A stretch of DNA of 7,788 bases, from NCBI GenBank assembly GCA_016928495.1, contig JAFGKQ010000047.1, forward strand, positions 1-7,788, written 5' to 3'. A program made the translations under genes and the position numbers. Of the stretch, positions 1 through 5,669 are shown in pieces. The DNA is from Candidatus Fermentibacterales bacterium. GTDB taxonomy: Bacteria > Fermentibacterota > Fermentibacteria > Fermentibacterales > JAFGKQ01. The notes beneath the pieces are model-generated. The model was not told where the DNA came from. It saw only the letters and a program-made list of their open reading frames with translations, and did no database searches. Position 1 is the first letter of the stretch. Every line of letters starts with the position of its first letter.

Positions 1-2259
1 GAGCACACCATCGTGGACATAAGCGTCAGCGGCAACATACAGAGGGCGAGGGTCAGGCAGGTCTACGGCAACCCCTACGACGAGGTGATCGAGGCCGTCT
101 ATACCTTTCCTCTCCCCGAGTCCGGGGCCGTGGACAGGATGGACATGTGGATCGGAGACCGGCTGGTTCATGGCGAGATCCACGAGCGTGACGAGGCCAG
201 GACCATCTACGAGCAGGCCATCAGCGCCGGGCGGACCGCTGCGCTGCTGGAGCAGGAGCGGCCCAACATCTTCACCCAGAGCGTGGGCAACATCCTCCCG
301 GGCGACAGCATCGTGATAGACATAAGCTACGTCGCCCCGGTGGAGTACGACTCGGGCGAGTACGAGCTGTCCTTCCCCACGGTCGTGGGGCCCAGGTTCG
401 TGCCCCCGGGCGCCCATACCCGCGTGATCTTCGGGACGGACACGGTGCAGACCTCCGTGGCGGACGCCCACCGCATAACCCCTCCGATCGTGCCGGAGGG
501 CACCAGGCCGGGCTACGACATCGAGATATCCGTCACCATAGACGCGGGCGTCGCGGTCATGGGGCTCTCGTCACTGAACCACGAGATAGACTGGGACATC
601 GACGAGGACGGGGTTGCGACGGTGGAGCTGCGCAACGAGGGCGAGATCCCCAACAGGGACTTCGTGCTCTCCTACAGGACCTCCGCGATGTGGATCCAGA
701 CCGGCGTGCTGGCACACAACGACCAGCTGGGCGGCCACTTCATGCTGGTCATGCAGCCCGACGTTGACGTGCCGGTCAGCAGGATCGCGCCCAAGGAGAT
801 GTTCTTCGTGATAGACTGCTCGGGCTCCATGAGCGGCTTCCCGATGGACACGGCCAGGGAGACGGTCAGGACCTTCGTGCGCGGTATGAACCCGGGCGAC
901 TCGTTCCAGATCATGAGGTTCTCGGAGACTGCGAGCAGCATGTCTCCCGCGCCCCTGGCCTACGACCCCGAGAACATAGAGCGGGGCATTGAGTACATAG
1001 AGCGGCTCTCGGGGCAGGGCGGGACCATGATGATCGAGGGCATCCGGGCGGCGGTTGGCTACCCCGAGGACCCCGACAGGATGCGCTTCATCATCTTCCT
1101 TACCGACGGCTACATAGGCAACGAGAGCGAGATCCTCGCGGAGCTGGAGTCCACGCTCGGACCGAGCACCAGGCTCTTCAGCATAGGCGTCGGCTCCTCC
1201 ACAAACAGGTACCTGATCGAGGGGCTTGCCGAGGCCGGACTGGGCCAGGCCTTCTACGTCGGACTCGGCGAGGACCCCACCGAGGCCGTCTCGACGATCT
1301 ACGAGAAGATCAACAACCCCTACCTGGTCAACATCTCGGTGGACTGGGGCGACCTGGGCGTCCACGACGTGTACCCCTCCCGGGTGCCGGACCTGTTCGC
1401 GGGCCAGCCTCTGGTGGTGGTAGGGCAGTACGAGCGGGGCGGGAGCGACCGGATCACGATCAACGGGACGCTCGCCGGCAGGCCCTGGAGCTCGGAGCTG
1501 GACGTGGATCTCCCTGCCTACGAGCCGGACCACGACGTGGTGGCCACTCTCTGGGCCCGGAGGAAGATCCACGAGTTGAGCAACCGTATGAACGACCCCT
1601 ATAGACCGGCGCCTCCGGGGATCGTCGAGGAGATCACGCAGACGGCTCTCGACTACCAGATCGTCAGCCAGTACACCTCCTTCGTGGCCGTCAGCGAAGA
1701 GGTCAGGGTGGACTCCGGCGGGCAGCCCGTGACGGTGGCCGTGCCGGTGAACATGCCCGACGGGGTCTCCTACCAGGGCGTGTTCGGCAACGACGGCGCG
1801 GAGGGCGGCTACATGCCGGGGGCACACACCTTCCAGTACAGGGGCATGGCGGCCGGCGAGTCGCTCTGCTGCACCGAGGAGATCGCGCCGGAGGTCGGCT
1901 GGCATGACTACCAGCAGGTGGAGCCGAGAGCGTCCATCTGGTCGGTCGCTCCCGGCCTCGGGCTGGCGCCCTCGGAGATCAGGGTCCCGTTCGACGCAGT
2001 GATGGAGGAGGTCGGGGAAGCTTACAGGCAGTACGTCGATGCTCTGCCGGAGGACCAGTGGATCCCACAGGGCAGCCTGACCTTCCTGATCAGGTTCGGG
2101 GACGACGGCCGCGTGCTCGAGGCCAGCGTTCTGCTGGACGAGACGGGCGATCCCGAGGTTGCCGAGCTGGTCCTGGACATCCTGAGGGACGTGGTCATCC
2201 CGGTCCCTCCCGATGGCGGAGGCACCGTCCAGGTCGGGATGTGGGTCTACCCCTACTGA
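1..2259 (+). CDS. VIT-VWA domain surface protein with TonB/AgmX-like C-terminal domain (5' partial)
   Basis: The frame is open to base 1, and the first codons already lie inside the VIT domain, so the true start and any signal peptide are upstream; the GTG at 13 is not a credible start. Counting residues from base 1, the VIT domain covers about 1-140, with the hallmarks FPLP, LLEQERPNIFTQSV and VVGPR. A VWA domain follows at about 266-435. Its metal-ion (MIDAS) site looks complete: DCSGS at 272-276, Thr342 in GGTMM, and Asp369 in LTDG. The linker WARRKIHEL and the motif YTSFVAV (558-564) are typical of inter-alpha-trypsin-inhibitor-like VIT-VWA proteins. A glycine-rich stretch leads to a C-terminal domain (about 691-752) that resembles AgmX/PglI or TonB C-termini (FLIRFGDDGRV, then VPPDGGG and a terminal VYPY). 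By family, such proteins are secreted or envelope adhesion-type proteins; the ligand is unknown. The stop lies inside a direct repeat shared with the convergent gene ending at 3101. Confidence 0.9.
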   Translation, partial: EHTIVDISVSGNIQRARVRQVYGNPYDEVIEAVYTFPLPESGAVDRMDMWIGDRLVHGEIHERDEARTIYEQAISAGRTAALLEQERPNIFTQSVGNILPGDSIVIDISYVAPVEYDSGEYELSFPTVVGPRFVPPGAHTRVIFGTDTVQTSVADAHRITPPIVPEGTRPGYDIEISVTIDAGVAVMGLSSLNHEIDWDIDEDGVATVELRNEGEIPNRDFVLSYRTSAMWIQTGVLAHNDQLGGHFMLVMQPDVDVPVSRIAPKEMFFVIDCSGSMSGFPMDTARETVRTFVRGMNPGDSFQIMRFSETASSMSPAPLAYDPENIERGIEYIERLSGQGGTMMIEGIRAAVGYPEDPDRMRFIIFLTDGYIGNESEILAELESTLGPSTRLFSIGVGSSTNRYLIEGLAEAGLGQAFYVGLGEDPTEAVSTIYEKINNPYLVNISVDWGDLGVHDVYPSRVPDLFAGQPLVVVGQYERGGSDRITINGTLAGRPWSSELDVDLPAYEPDHDVVATLWARRKIHELSNRMNDPYRPAPPGIVEEITQTALDYQIVSQYTSFVAVSEEVRVDSGGQPVTVAVPVNMPDGVSYQGVFGNDGAEGGYMPGAHTFQYRGMAAGESLCCTEEIAPEVGWHDYQQVEPRASIWSVAPGLGLAPSEIRVPFDAVMEEVGEAYRQYVDALPEDQWIPQGSLTFLIRFGDDGRVLEASVLLDETGDPEVAELVLDILRDVVIPVPPDGGGTVQVGMWVYPY

Positions 2260-2273
2260 TCCGTCGGGGCGAT
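2252..2273. repeat. Left copy of 22-bp exact direct repeat flanking vapBC
   Basis: This 22-bp stretch is identical to 3100-3121, 848 bp away. It begins in the penultimate codons of the VIT-VWA gene and contains its TGA stop (2257-2259). Weaker similarity continues on both sides: 2243-2251 against 3091-3099 matches at 6 of 9, and 2274-2290 against 3122-3138 at 10 of 17, with most differences transitions. On the minus strand this copy would encode IAPTDQ-stop, the same tail as the propeller-like protein. A chance 22-bp match within 7.8 kb is very unlikely. Confidence 0.9.
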
Positions 2274-2280
2274 TCCGGGG

Positions 2281-2320
2281 AACAGGCGGGCTGCCGGCCG
2301 CGAGGCCGGCAGCCCCTGTT
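2281..2320. terminator. Strong bidirectional hairpin terminator
   Basis: A perfect 12-bp GC-rich stem (2288-2299 with 2304-2315) closes a GCGA tetraloop of the GNRA type. It is extended by a second 5-bp helix, AACAG (2281-2285) with CTGTT (2316-2320), across a two-base bulge. It sits 21 bp after the VIT-VWA stop and 54 bp after the vapC stop, where two convergent genes need termination. The downstream T run is short (CTGTTTG), so efficiency is inferred from stem strength. Confidence 0.75.
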
Positions 2321-2374
2321 TGACCGTAATAGCTTTGCTGTATCCAGGTACGGAGTGAGTCAGCCTGCGGTGTA

Positions 2375-2761
2375 TCAGGGCTTCCGGTACGGCGGCTCCA
2401 CGCCCTCGATCATAGGGAAGTGCCTGGTGTTCAGGGTCGCCAGTTGCGCGTGTGCCGCCTCCGCGGTCGCGGCGACGACCGCATCGGCTATTCCGGTTCC
2501 ATGAGAGGCCCGGTACCGTCCCCTGTAGATGCCGGCCTGCCTGGCGATTGCTGCCGTGACAGGCAGGATCTCCATTGTGGAGAACAGAGCATCGATCTGC
2601 TCCGCGTCCCTGTCGCTCCTGACGCCGGCGAAGACCTCGGCAACCGAGATGGCCGACACGCTCGTGCGGCCCAGGTGCGAGTCCATGAAGCCTGCCGCCC
2701 GCTCGTCGCCCCTGAGGAAGTCGATCAGGACATCGGTGTCGACTAACACGAGCCCGCTCAC
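2375..2761 (-). CDS. vapC: VapC-family PIN-domain toxin (ribonuclease)
   Basis: This 128-residue protein has the usual length and pattern of a type II VapC toxin. PIN nucleases of this family cleave RNA (often tRNA or rRNA) using Mg2+ or Mn2+ held by acidic residues. The expected ones are visible: Asp8 in LVDTDVLIDF, Glu42 in SVAEVFAG, and Asp93 in IADAVVAATA. The C-terminus (NTRHFPMIEG then EPPY) is typical of the FitB-like branch. I place the start at the GTG at 2761, which overlaps the antitoxin stop as GTGA and gives a classical coupled start. An in-frame ATG at 2782 would add seven residues inside vapB and is less likely. The toxin looks intact and follows its antitoxin in one operon, ending before the terminator at 2281-2320. 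The molecular target cannot be told from sequence. Confidence 0.9.
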   Translation of the reverse strand: MSGLVLVDTDVLIDFLRGDERAAGFMDSHLGRTSVSAISVAEVFAGVRSDRDAEQIDALFSTMEILPVTAAIARQAGIYRGRYRASHGTGIADAVVAATAEAAHAQLATLNTRHFPMIEGVEPPYRKP

Positions 2762-3000
2762 CTGCCGAGACCCCTCTCCCACTCCTCCCGCACCTCGCGG
2801 AAGTAGGGAAGGTCGTCTCGGTCCCGCCAGATCCCGGCAAGGCTCCTGAGCACCTCTCTCCTGCCGGAATGGCCCGTTCGCCTCACCACTGAGTCTATGG
2901 CCTCGCGTATGAGCTGGCTCATGGGCTTGCCGGTGCTGCGCGAGAGCTCGCGCAGGGCCTGACGCTCCCTCTCGGTGAGATAGACCTGTGTGCGTATCAT
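2758..3000 (-). CDS. vapB: VapB-like ribbon-helix-helix antitoxin
   Basis: An 80-residue protein with an N-terminal ribbon-helix-helix (CopG/MetJ-type) DNA-binding fold: beta strand RTQVYL (3-8), then helix-turn-helix with GKPMSQLIREAI (24-35). The C-terminal tail (AGIWRDRDDLPYF) is the kind that wraps around and inhibits the PIN toxin in related VapB proteins. The ATG at 3000 is chosen because GAGGTGAT (3012-3005) is an excellent ribosome site whose GAGG core lies 8 nt upstream; GTG at 3009 and ATG at 3006 are in frame but overlap that site. It is first in the operon, and its stop overlaps the vapC start by four bases as GTGA. By family it neutralises VapC by direct binding and, with it, represses its own promoter. 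Confidence 0.9.
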   Translation of the reverse strand: MIRTQVYLTERERQALRELSRSTGKPMSQLIREAIDSVVRRTGHSGRREVLRSLAGIWRDRDDLPYFREVREEWERGLGR

Positions 3001-3015
3001 ATGCATCACCTCATG

Positions 3016-3044
3016 GTGTATACATTACATTGTGATGTATATAC
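3016..3044. promoter_or_regulatory. Palindromic operator of the vapBC operon
   Basis: A near-perfect palindrome is centred on base 3030. Positions 3016-3044 pair symmetrically except at 3018/3042 and 3026/3034, with TATACAT (3019-3025) opposite ATGTATA (3035-3041). It is AT-rich in a GC-rich region, lies 16 bp before the vapB start, and covers the promoter spacer and -10 region. This is the expected placement for autoregulation by a ribbon-helix-helix VapB-VapC complex; the binding itself is inferred. Confidence 0.75.
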
Positions 3045-3050
3045 GGTCAA
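3022..3050 (-). promoter_or_regulatory. Predicted vapBC promoter
   Basis: On the minus strand, TTGACC (3050-3045) matches the -35 consensus at five of six positions. It is followed after 17 bp by TAATGT (3027-3022) as a -10 element. Transcription would begin near 3015, just upstream of the GAGGTGAT ribosome site, giving a very short leader. The whole unit overlaps the operator. Confidence 0.55.
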
Positions 3051-3099
3051 GCACTGCCCGAGTGCGGCTGGGCCGTTGGGGTCGGTAGCCGGATCTGCG

Positions 3100-3121
3100 C
3101 CTACTGATCCGTCGGGGCGAT
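3100..3121. repeat. Right copy of 22-bp exact direct repeat flanking vapBC
   Basis: Identical to 2252-2273. Here the repeat carries the TAG stop (minus strand, 3103-3101) and the last six codons (IAPTDQ) of the propeller-like gene. The bases just before it (3091-3099) resemble the end of the VIT-VWA coding sequence at 2243-2251, as expected if this flank were a decaying duplicate of that gene's tail. Confidence 0.9.
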
Positions 3122-4363
3122 CCTGAGGAGCCTGCAGGCCATCCGGTCGACGTAGAACACGAGGTCCTCGAACAGGGCGCTCGTGGCCCTGTCCTCCAGG
3201 AAGCTGCCGCAGGTCGCGTCGAAGATCTCCTCGAACCCGGGCTCGAGGTTGCCGGATGACCAGACAGGAAGTCCCTGCCCGTCCAGCAGCAGGAAGCCGT
3301 TCATGAAGGGCCGGTCGGGCCCCCCGTCGAGCAGGACGAGGCACCTGCCCTCGTTCGACACGGCCTCCACCCGGGCCCCGGCCAGGGACCTGGAGTCGGC
3401 GCAGGTCTCCCAGAGGAGACCGATGTCCGGACGGAGGGAGAGGCACGCGATCCGTGTGAGTGCCTCGCCGGCGTGCTCGGGGACGGAGCGGGCTGACCGG
3501 CAGCACAGGCAGGCCTTCGAGCCGTCATCGCTCGTCATGAGGCTGCCGTCGAACACATCTCCCGGGCCGCTCCAGAGAAGGGTGCCGGTCTGACCGTCGA
3601 GGACCTCCACGCCCGACTCTCGGGTCACGACCAGAGTCTGCCCGTCAGGAGTGATGCAGAGGCCCATGGCGCCCTCGTCCGTGCCGGTGGCCTGCCAGAG
3701 CTCGATTCCATCCCCGTCGGTCACGGCCAGCCTGAAGTCGCCATGCCTCAGCCCCTCGCGCATCAGGAAGGCGCAGAGGCCCCCCCCGGCTGCGCGGGCG
3801 ATCTCCTGCGGGTACTCGTAGAGCAGCTCCAGCCTCCAGCCCGTCCATGGCTCGATGAGGGTGCAGTTGCCGGTGTACACGAGCAGGAAGCCGTGATGCG
3901 AGACATCCGTCTCGGGTATGCCCATCCCCTCGGGCGAGGGGTATGAGCAGTGCTCCCCGACGAGCATGTCGAGCAGGAAGCAGGGATAGTCAGACCAGGG
4001 CAGCGGGAGCCCCACCGCCCAGGTGACATCCCTGGAGAAGGAGACACGGTATATCTCGTCCAGGTGGACCTCGATCGACCGGACCGGCTGGCCGTCCTCG
4101 AGCAGCAGTACCTGCGAGGCCGTGCCGATGCCCAGTCGCAGATGGACGCCCGAGGAGTCGCGGTGGAGGAACGGGGCCACGGCGTAGAGGGGAACCGGCG
4201 AGGGCGGCTCCGGGAAGGGCTCTCCAAGCTCCCGCGGGTTGAGCGCGAGAAGCTCCTCCACAGTGTAGCCGGGCGCCAGCCATGGCTCCTCGAGACTCGC
4301 CAGCAGGCTGTCGGGAATCGCGTTGCTGCCCACGATGCACAGGGTCAGGATCGAGCCGATCAT
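3101..4363 (-). CDS. Secreted beta-propeller-like protein of unknown function
   Basis: A 420-residue protein that I cannot assign to a named family. The N-terminus (MIGSILTLCIVGSNA) is a short hydrophobic segment that could be a signal peptide, though it lacks the usual basic n-region. The body has repeated beta-strand patterns of the WD40/PQQ kind: ITPDGQTLVV, then VEVLDGQTGTLLWSG, and later LLLDGQGLPVWSSG. These suggest a propeller fold with about six or seven degenerate blades. Cysteines are scattered, including a CLCC cluster near the middle. The ATG at 4363 follows AGAGAAGGA, a usable but close ribosome site; no in-frame start lies just upstream. A run of eight G (3787-3780, minus strand) occurs in the coding sequence. 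The last codons lie in the direct repeat shared with the VIT-VWA gene. The gene is real; function is unknown. Confidence 0.8.
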   Translation of the reverse strand: MIGSILTLCIVGSNAIPDSLLASLEEPWLAPGYTVEELLALNPRELGEPFPEPPSPVPLYAVAPFLHRDSSGVHLRLGIGTASQVLLLEDGQPVRSIEVHLDEIYRVSFSRDVTWAVGLPLPWSDYPCFLLDMLVGEHCSYPSPEGMGIPETDVSHHGFLLVYTGNCTLIEPWTGWRLELLYEYPQEIARAAGGGLCAFLMREGLRHGDFRLAVTDGDGIELWQATGTDEGAMGLCITPDGQTLVVTRESGVEVLDGQTGTLLWSGPGDVFDGSLMTSDDGSKACLCCRSARSVPEHAGEALTRIACLSLRPDIGLLWETCADSRSLAGARVEAVSNEGRCLVLLDGGPDRPFMNGFLLLDGQGLPVWSSGNLEPGFEEIFDATCGSFLEDRATSALFEDLVFYVDRMACRLLRIAPTDQ

Positions 4364-4649: not shown

Positions 4650-4715
4650 TCAGCTCTTGCGGTAGGGCGGCTCCAGGCCTTCCGACACCGGCAAATCCCC
4701 GGTGATGAGCCTTGC
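4650..4715 (-). pseudogene. C-terminal fragment of a second vapC toxin
   Basis: The minus-strand frame ending in TGA at 4650 encodes ARLITGDLPVSEG followed by LEPPYRKS. Its last 12 residues match the intact VapC tail (ending EG-VEPPYRKP) at 8 of 12 positions. The last 30 bases match the vapC 3' end (2375-2404) at 25 of 30. Only this tail is present: upstream in the same frame lies the TAA of the RCC1 gene (4749-4751) with no PIN core. It is therefore a truncated relic of a related toxin gene. A 7-bp inverted repeat (4630-4636 with 4648-4654) overlaps its stop. Confidence 0.55.
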
Positions 4716-4748: not shown

Positions 4749-5669
4749 TTATCTCTCCCGGAGCGCCAGGCAGTGCGAGTGACCGGCGGAGATCGCCACG
4801 AAGCTCGAGTCGGGATCGGGAACTCCGGACAGGTAACCATGGTCGTAGTCATCCGTGCCCCAAGCGACGATGGTGCCTTCAGCCTTGAGGCCGACGCTGA
4901 AGTCCTGACCTCCATCCACCGAGACGAAGCCCTCGTTGGGCTCAGGCACGTCACACTGGCCCTCGTCGTTGTCGCCCCAGGCTTCGACGGAGCCGTCATC
5001 CCTGATTGCCAGGCTGTGTCCTGCCCCGCAGGCGATGGCAACGAAGCCCTCGTTTGGCTCGGGTACCTGGCATTGGCCGTAGTGGTCCCATCCCCAGGCA
5101 TTGATCGAGCCGCCCTGCCTCAGTCCCAGGCTGTGCATCTCGCCTGCCGCGACAGCGACAAAGCCCTCGTTGGGCCCTGGCACATCGCACTGGCCGGAGT
5201 CGTTGTCGCCCCAGGCGACTATGGAGCCGTCCTCGCGAAGGCCCAGGCTGTGGTCGCCGCCGGCCGCGACGGCGACGAAGCCTTCGTTGGGCCCGGGCAC
5301 GTCACACTGCCCCTGGCCGTTGGCTCCCCACGCGACGACCGAGCCATCCTGCCTGAGGCCCAGGACGTGCAGGGTGCCGTCCACTGCGATGAACCCGGAG
5401 TTCGGCTCAGGCACTTCACAGCCGCCGAAGATATTCCACCCCCAGACCGCGATGGAGCCGTCCGCTCTCAGCGCCATGCTCAGCTCCACCCCGCCTGCGA
5501 TGGACACGAAGTCCGCGTTGGGCTCGGGCACGTTGCACTCGCCACGGCCGTTCTCACCCCATGCGGTGATGGAACCATCCTGCGGAGGCGTGTCGGGCGG
5601 TGCGGTCACCGAGTTCCAGCAACCCGAGAGCAGCAGCGCCGTGATGGCTACGACGAGAGTCCTGCTCAT
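4749..5669 (-). CDS. RCC1-repeat beta-propeller lipoprotein
   Basis: A 306-residue protein. It begins with a type II signal peptide whose lipobox LLSGC ends at Cys17, predicting lipid anchoring, followed by a short Pro/Thr linker. Residues 31-306 are seven tandem repeats of 38-43 residues with the pattern DGS-AWG-N--GQC-VP-PN-GFVAVAAG--HSLGLR. This is an RCC1/ALS-type repeat, and seven copies would close a complete propeller. Blades 1-6 each have a cysteine at the same position (45, 84, 122, 161, 200, 239); the last blade lacks it and carries a four-residue insertion. The ATG at 5669 follows an excellent purine-rich site (GGGAGGAAG). The gene is transcribed away from the small secreted protein at 5850. 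RCC1 propellers usually mediate protein or carbohydrate contacts; the partner is not visible. Confidence 0.92.
   Translation of the reverse strand: MSRTLVVAITALLLSGCWNSVTAPPDTPPQDGSITAWGENGRGECNVPEPNADFVSIAGGVELSMALRADGSIAVWGWNIFGGCEVPEPNSGFIAVDGTLHVLGLRQDGSVVAWGANGQGQCDVPGPNEGFVAVAAGGDHSLGLREDGSIVAWGDNDSGQCDVPGPNEGFVAVAAGEMHSLGLRQGGSINAWGWDHYGQCQVPEPNEGFVAIACGAGHSLAIRDDGSVEAWGDNDEGQCDVPEPNEGFVSVDGGQDFSVGLKAEGTIVAWGTDDYDHGYLSGVPDPDSSFVAISAGHSHCLALRER
4752..5579 (-). repeat. Seven tandem ~117-bp coding repeats (RCC1 blades)
   Basis: The coding DNA is a tandem array of about 117-bp units, one per propeller blade. The central units (blades 3 and 4, about 5115-5348) are the most alike, sharing long runs such as the codons for GQCDVPGPNEGFVAVAAG. 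This points to recent internal duplication or gene conversion. The end units are the most divergent. Confidence 0.85.

Follow-up and report, generated by a model that had tools for sequence, protein, structure and literature searches.

Comparison of the two sides of a vapBC toxin-antitoxin (TA) operon in the window, the whole 7,788-nucleotide stretch of DNA analyzed here, from an uncultured Fermentibacterota-like bacterium, revealed a long direct repeat of the junction between the neighboring genes, as would be left by insertion of vapBC with a long target duplication that spared both neighbors. This is the best reading of the locus and a likely one, if unproven, to which we give a little under half of our belief.

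A 22-bp direct repeat carrying the stop codons of both neighbors, as reported by the first-pass annotation, was confirmed on the forward strand at 2252–2273 and 3100–3121, with the 22-mer CCTACTGATCCGTCGGGGCGAT common to both places as an exact match. Copy 1 contains the TGA stop of the VIT-VWA gene (2257–2259) and copy 2 the stop of the opposite-strand gene (3101–3103, CTA on the forward strand). With a per-base match probability of 0.275 in the window, about 1.4e-5 exact 22-mers would be expected by chance over all pairs within it; for a 2.3-Mb genome, the expectation from base composition is about 1e-3 at a spacing of <1 kb. The suggested search of the genome for additional copies revealed no third place in the MAG, even at up to three mismatches; the 22-mer is also absent from the viral contigs searched and, at up to two mismatches, from all of the order-mates (0/41), with only scattered places found at three mismatches (3/41 order-mates). 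The core is consequently private to the locus and not a dispersed genomic motif. A scan of 677 kb of the same genome, sampled by stretches, for exact direct repeats of at least 18 bp with 300–3000 bp spacing revealed, as other such repeats, a CRISPR array, apparent tandem paralogues or RCC1 repeats, and REP-like elements.

Various other repeats were observed in this MAG. One family, REP/MITE-like, carries CTTAAGTTTCTTTAACTACGTCCCC in inverted orientation at its ends, with 21 end matches in the MAG and none within the window; copies are located in L104 (6966–7127 and 9006–9153) and L183 (1050–2310), and also in L184, L185, L186, and L187. The L183 copy, which is 1261 bp long, encodes what we take, by eye, to be a REP-associated tyrosine transposase, with the other copies being mostly 148–206 bp and lacking a gene. 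At L125 (1649–3018), two ends of the family surround a 219-aa ORF that is outer-membrane protein-like and not a transposase, an arrangement that may reflect either gene capture or a pair of independent repeats. A CRISPR-like array with ∼61-bp spacing sits at a contig end (L117, 15069–16019), and a repeat array in L078 (9301–9712) is similar to that of the RCC1-like gene in the window (4749–5669, reverse strand), which is built of 117-bp tandem repeats.

The exact core sits within a longer, ungapped similarity of 83 nt (2209–2291 versus 3057–3139; 72% identical), comprised of 43 nt on the left, the 22 exact positions, and 18 nt on the right. The left arm of copy 1 (2209–2251, forward strand) represents the native VIT-VWA 3′ end (PDGGGTVQVGMWVYP), and its counterpart in copy 2 (3057–3099, forward strand) appears to be a non-coding relic, with PECGWAVGVGSRICA as its translation in the VIT frame. 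These arms are identical at 27 of 43 positions, a similarity also attained by 18 of 200,000 pairs from the window and by 33 of 1,000,000 random pairs from the genome. The right arms (2274–2291 and 3122–3139; 11/18 identical) are weak by themselves, with ∼2% of random pairs being as good, and that of copy 1 is possibly a decayed relic of the 3′ end of the opposite-strand gene. Jointly, the left and right arms were equalled by 15 of 1,000,000 random pairs, where the sum was examined only for left scores of at least 5. Translation in the VIT frame gives PECGWAVGVGSRICAY and a stop for the copy 2 arm versus PDGGGTVQVGMWVYPY and a stop for the native end, and the copy 2 left arm looks like a decayed end of the VIT gene, placed where it would no longer be usable. 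The mismatches in the arms fall 7/3/6 and 4/2/1 by codon position, counts that cannot separate decay from coding divergence because the C termini of real orthologues also show little bias. An outward fading of similarity on both sides had been described previously; the similarity does extend beyond the core, but there is no smooth fade, the arms being ∼62% identical throughout, and the differences are not mostly transitions as had been claimed (11 transitions versus 12 transversions).

The VIT-VWA gene (1–2259, forward strand) is open at the start of the window and encodes a sortase-target-like protein (Pfam VIT, 2.8e-33; NCBIfam TIGR03788, below cut-off). The convergent neighbor, referred to as the propeller gene (3101–4363, reverse strand; 420 aa), is an ORF that has no match in Pfam or NCBIfam, and its homologues in order-mates are all distant, at about 20–37% identity. 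When the two copies of the repeat are merged into one, both genes remain intact and convergent with their reading frames unchanged and a 7-bp overlap, in agreement with the earlier claim of two intact genes overlapping by about that length. The closest VIT-VWA relatives (L028–L031), at 52–62% identity, are found in Candidatus Fermentibacteria and related MAGs. No empty site, in the form of the junction without vapBC, was found among these nearest relatives, and the neighboring genes differ in L028, L030, and L031.

Located between the two copies, the vapC toxin gene (2375–2761, reverse strand) and the vapB antitoxin gene (2758–3000, reverse strand) are adjacent and co-directional, with the GTG start of vapC overlapping the stop of vapB. 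Both have Pfam matches above cut-off, vapC to the PIN domain (8.6e-14; NCBIfam VapC below cut-off) and vapB to the ribbon-helix-helix (RHH) domain RHH_3 (1.8e-6). The starts were picked by comparison with the relatives L059–L061, where vapB likewise starts at an ATG (MVRTQ...). As judged by these matches and this gene order, 2375–3000 is a complete type II vapBC toxin-antitoxin operon. An operator-like palindrome of the RHH type is located upstream of vapB at 3016–3044 (arms GTGTATACATTACA and TGTGATGTATATAC, 86% complementary), and a strong hairpin (−40.6 kcal/mol, z −5.3) at 2280–2322 separates the convergent VIT-VWA and vapC genes. This hairpin is likely to be a two-way terminator and may serve both converging transcripts. 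The first-pass description of the insert as a TA operon with its operator and terminator stands for vapB, vapC, the palindrome, and the hairpin; as a terminator, the hairpin has a poor T-run and is missing from the list of the terminator consensus scan. The single-copy part (2292–3056) corresponds almost exactly to the TA operon plus its signals, with the similarity ending at 3057, just beyond the vapBC promoter region. The GC content of the insert (0.643) equals that of the host (0.658), so composition gives no sign of a foreign origin. As noted previously, no recombinase is encoded in the window (ORFs, Pfam); the window also contains no tRNA and has no match in Rfam. The best candidate for a terminal inverted repeat is an inner and weak one of 12 nt (2317–2328/3042–3053), which was reached by 14 of 300 shuffles when scored as the best 15-mer and by 5 of 300 as the longest exact match.

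The insertion reading would proceed as follows. A bare vapBC addiction cassette of ∼0.77 kb (hairpin, vapC, vapB, and promoter/operator) would have entered a formerly single convergent-gene junction with a 7-bp overlap, and a target of ∼83 bp or more would have been duplicated upon its entry, presumably through repair. Copy 1 would have retained the functional end of the VIT-VWA gene and copy 2 that of the opposite gene, leaving the redundant half of each copy to lose its function and drift to ∼62% identity. The position at convergent 3′ ends would then reflect the survival of harmless insertions, since gene-end placement needs no targeting if insertions there do no harm and so survive. A direct repeat of the target is present on both sides of the module (83 nt, 72%, 22 exact), and insertion is further supported by the extent of the similarity, which is far above chance, the locus-private nature of the repeat, the intact genes after collapse, the match of the single-copy part to the TA operon, the lack of convincing terminal inverted repeats, and the resemblance of the copy 2 left arm to a decayed VIT C terminus. 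Under uniform decay of the 83 nt, an exact run of 22 bp has a probability of 0.014, or 0.034 when allowing for eight doubly coding bases; at 1–3%, the core need not be a special site. As counter-evidence, 14 bases of the core lie past the VIT stop in copy 1 with no known reason for conservation, and the probability for these alone is 0.0013. Of the two routes proposed in the first-pass annotation, a target duplication of at least 22 bp or recombination at an attachment core, the former is thus the best reading, with a longer duplication than supposed, whereas the latter is unsupported.

Bracketing repeats were sought around other vapBC operons; the same test, with the decayed vapC described below left out of the TA range, recovers the window's own repeat. 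The nearest three vapBC pairs from the order (G015, G020, and G027; 45–51% protein identity) are unbracketed: L059 and L061 gave no repeat, and a candidate at L060 scored 14 versus a shuffle maximum of 12, but its copies are ∼3 kb apart and it was taken as chance. Relatives of vapC on plasmids are distant (29–43% identical) and provided no lead. With the 22-mer not conserved among the 41 order-mates, and with no bracketing at these three vapBC pairs, neither a reusable attachment site nor the stop-codon targeting suggested earlier is supported, the core being explicable as a run within a decayed duplication.

The window also contains the remains of a second vapC (4653–4715, reverse strand), consisting of the last 20 codons and the stop, in the same orientation as the intact gene and following the RCC1-like gene. 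It shares 60% amino acid identity with the intact vapC over 20 residues, and the DNA is 69% identical over 106 nt (E 1.7e-11). This suggests that vapBC entered the locus at least twice, or that a single module gave rise to two copies, one of which has since decayed. As a sign of repeated vapBC turnover at the locus, the remnant counts in favor of the insertion reading. A possible third copy of the core beside this remnant, part of a 203-nt match from 2249, was rejected: 40 of 1000 shuffles did as well as the non-coding half of the match, which leaves the vapC portion and ∼30 nt downstream of it.

The remnant, together with the VIT C-terminus-like left arm in copy 2, could also point to regional duplication and/or deletion, in which a local rearrangement apart from the arrival of vapBC duplicated the VIT-VWA 3′ end (for example as a tandem copy deleted down to its tail) with vapBC already present. 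We consider this doubtful, as a second event would be required to put the repeat exactly around a complete TA operon, and no VIT remnant is visible past 43 nt. A repeat arising by chance in a 7.8-kb MAG contig, or an assembly graph error threading the vapBC path through a short repeat, is unlikely. The assembly is fragmented (337 contigs, 81% complete), and with many genomes scanned even the ∼1e-3 such 22-mers expected per genome at this spacing carry some weight, but a similarity over 83 nt clearly exceeds what chance would give, and a misassembly would still require the 22-mer in two contexts.

A Campbell-like homeologous crossover, in which a circular or linear donor with a diverged VIT end exchanged within the 22-bp identity, would naturally account for a core that is perfect although the arms to its left and right have diverged. 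Neither a donor locus nor a homologous VIT-vapBC arrangement was found among the relatives, however, the closest vapBC relatives being just 45–51% identical in protein, and we regard this route as quite unlikely. The same core with differing arms, the restored gene ends, and the weak 12-nt inner inverted repeat are consistent with site-specific recombination in which a recombinase would act in trans on an attachment core of 22 bp. This appears improbable given the absence of the core elsewhere in the MAG, in the viral contigs, and in the 41 order-mates (up to two mismatches), the unbracketed vapBC relatives, and a window without a recombinase gene. Least credible, and in our judgment highly improbable, is a recombinase-less vapBC moving by a dedicated mechanism that recognizes or recreates a short core where two stop codons converge; if true, the toxin-antitoxin pair would itself be a mobile element that spares its neighbors.

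Some integrative elements insert at the 3′ ends of genes with direct-repeat att cores. The present locus shares with them the direct repeat and the preservation of both host genes, but differs in having no integrase, a core that is private to the locus, and arms that are also similar on both sides. TA pairs move widely between genomes, and the insertion route of bare ones is rarely seen. According to PMC2654758, ccdO157 of Escherichia coli is a chromosomal TA islet, and vapBC here likewise stands alone as an islet made up of one TA pair; strain collections allow an empty-site comparison for ccdO157, whereas no empty site was found for the present locus. As with the superintegron TA cassettes treated in that article, the mobile unit would be an entire TA operon, promoter included, but here there is no attC site (by eye) and no integrase gene in the window, and the repeat consists of neighboring gene ends.

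The closest parallel is with RM units, which move unlinked to mobile elements and with target duplications of ∼100 bp (PMC3874152; PMC3031569; PMC1643837); insertion of RM gene complexes with long target duplication is attributed to Nobusato et al. 2000 in the reviews PMC3874152 and PMC3031569. The likeness lies in a bare addiction-type module with no recombinase of its own and a direct repeat of target DNA of ∼100 bp. The differences are that the module here is a type II TA system, that the repeat is degenerate outside an exact core of 22 bp, and that no empty-site genome was found to establish the polarity of the event. Taken together, the locus plausibly represents a known type of event, here involving a TA system. 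If the insertion reading is true, the long-target-duplication pattern argued for RM modules would extend to TA modules, favoring a shared route by which addiction modules insert without a recombinase.
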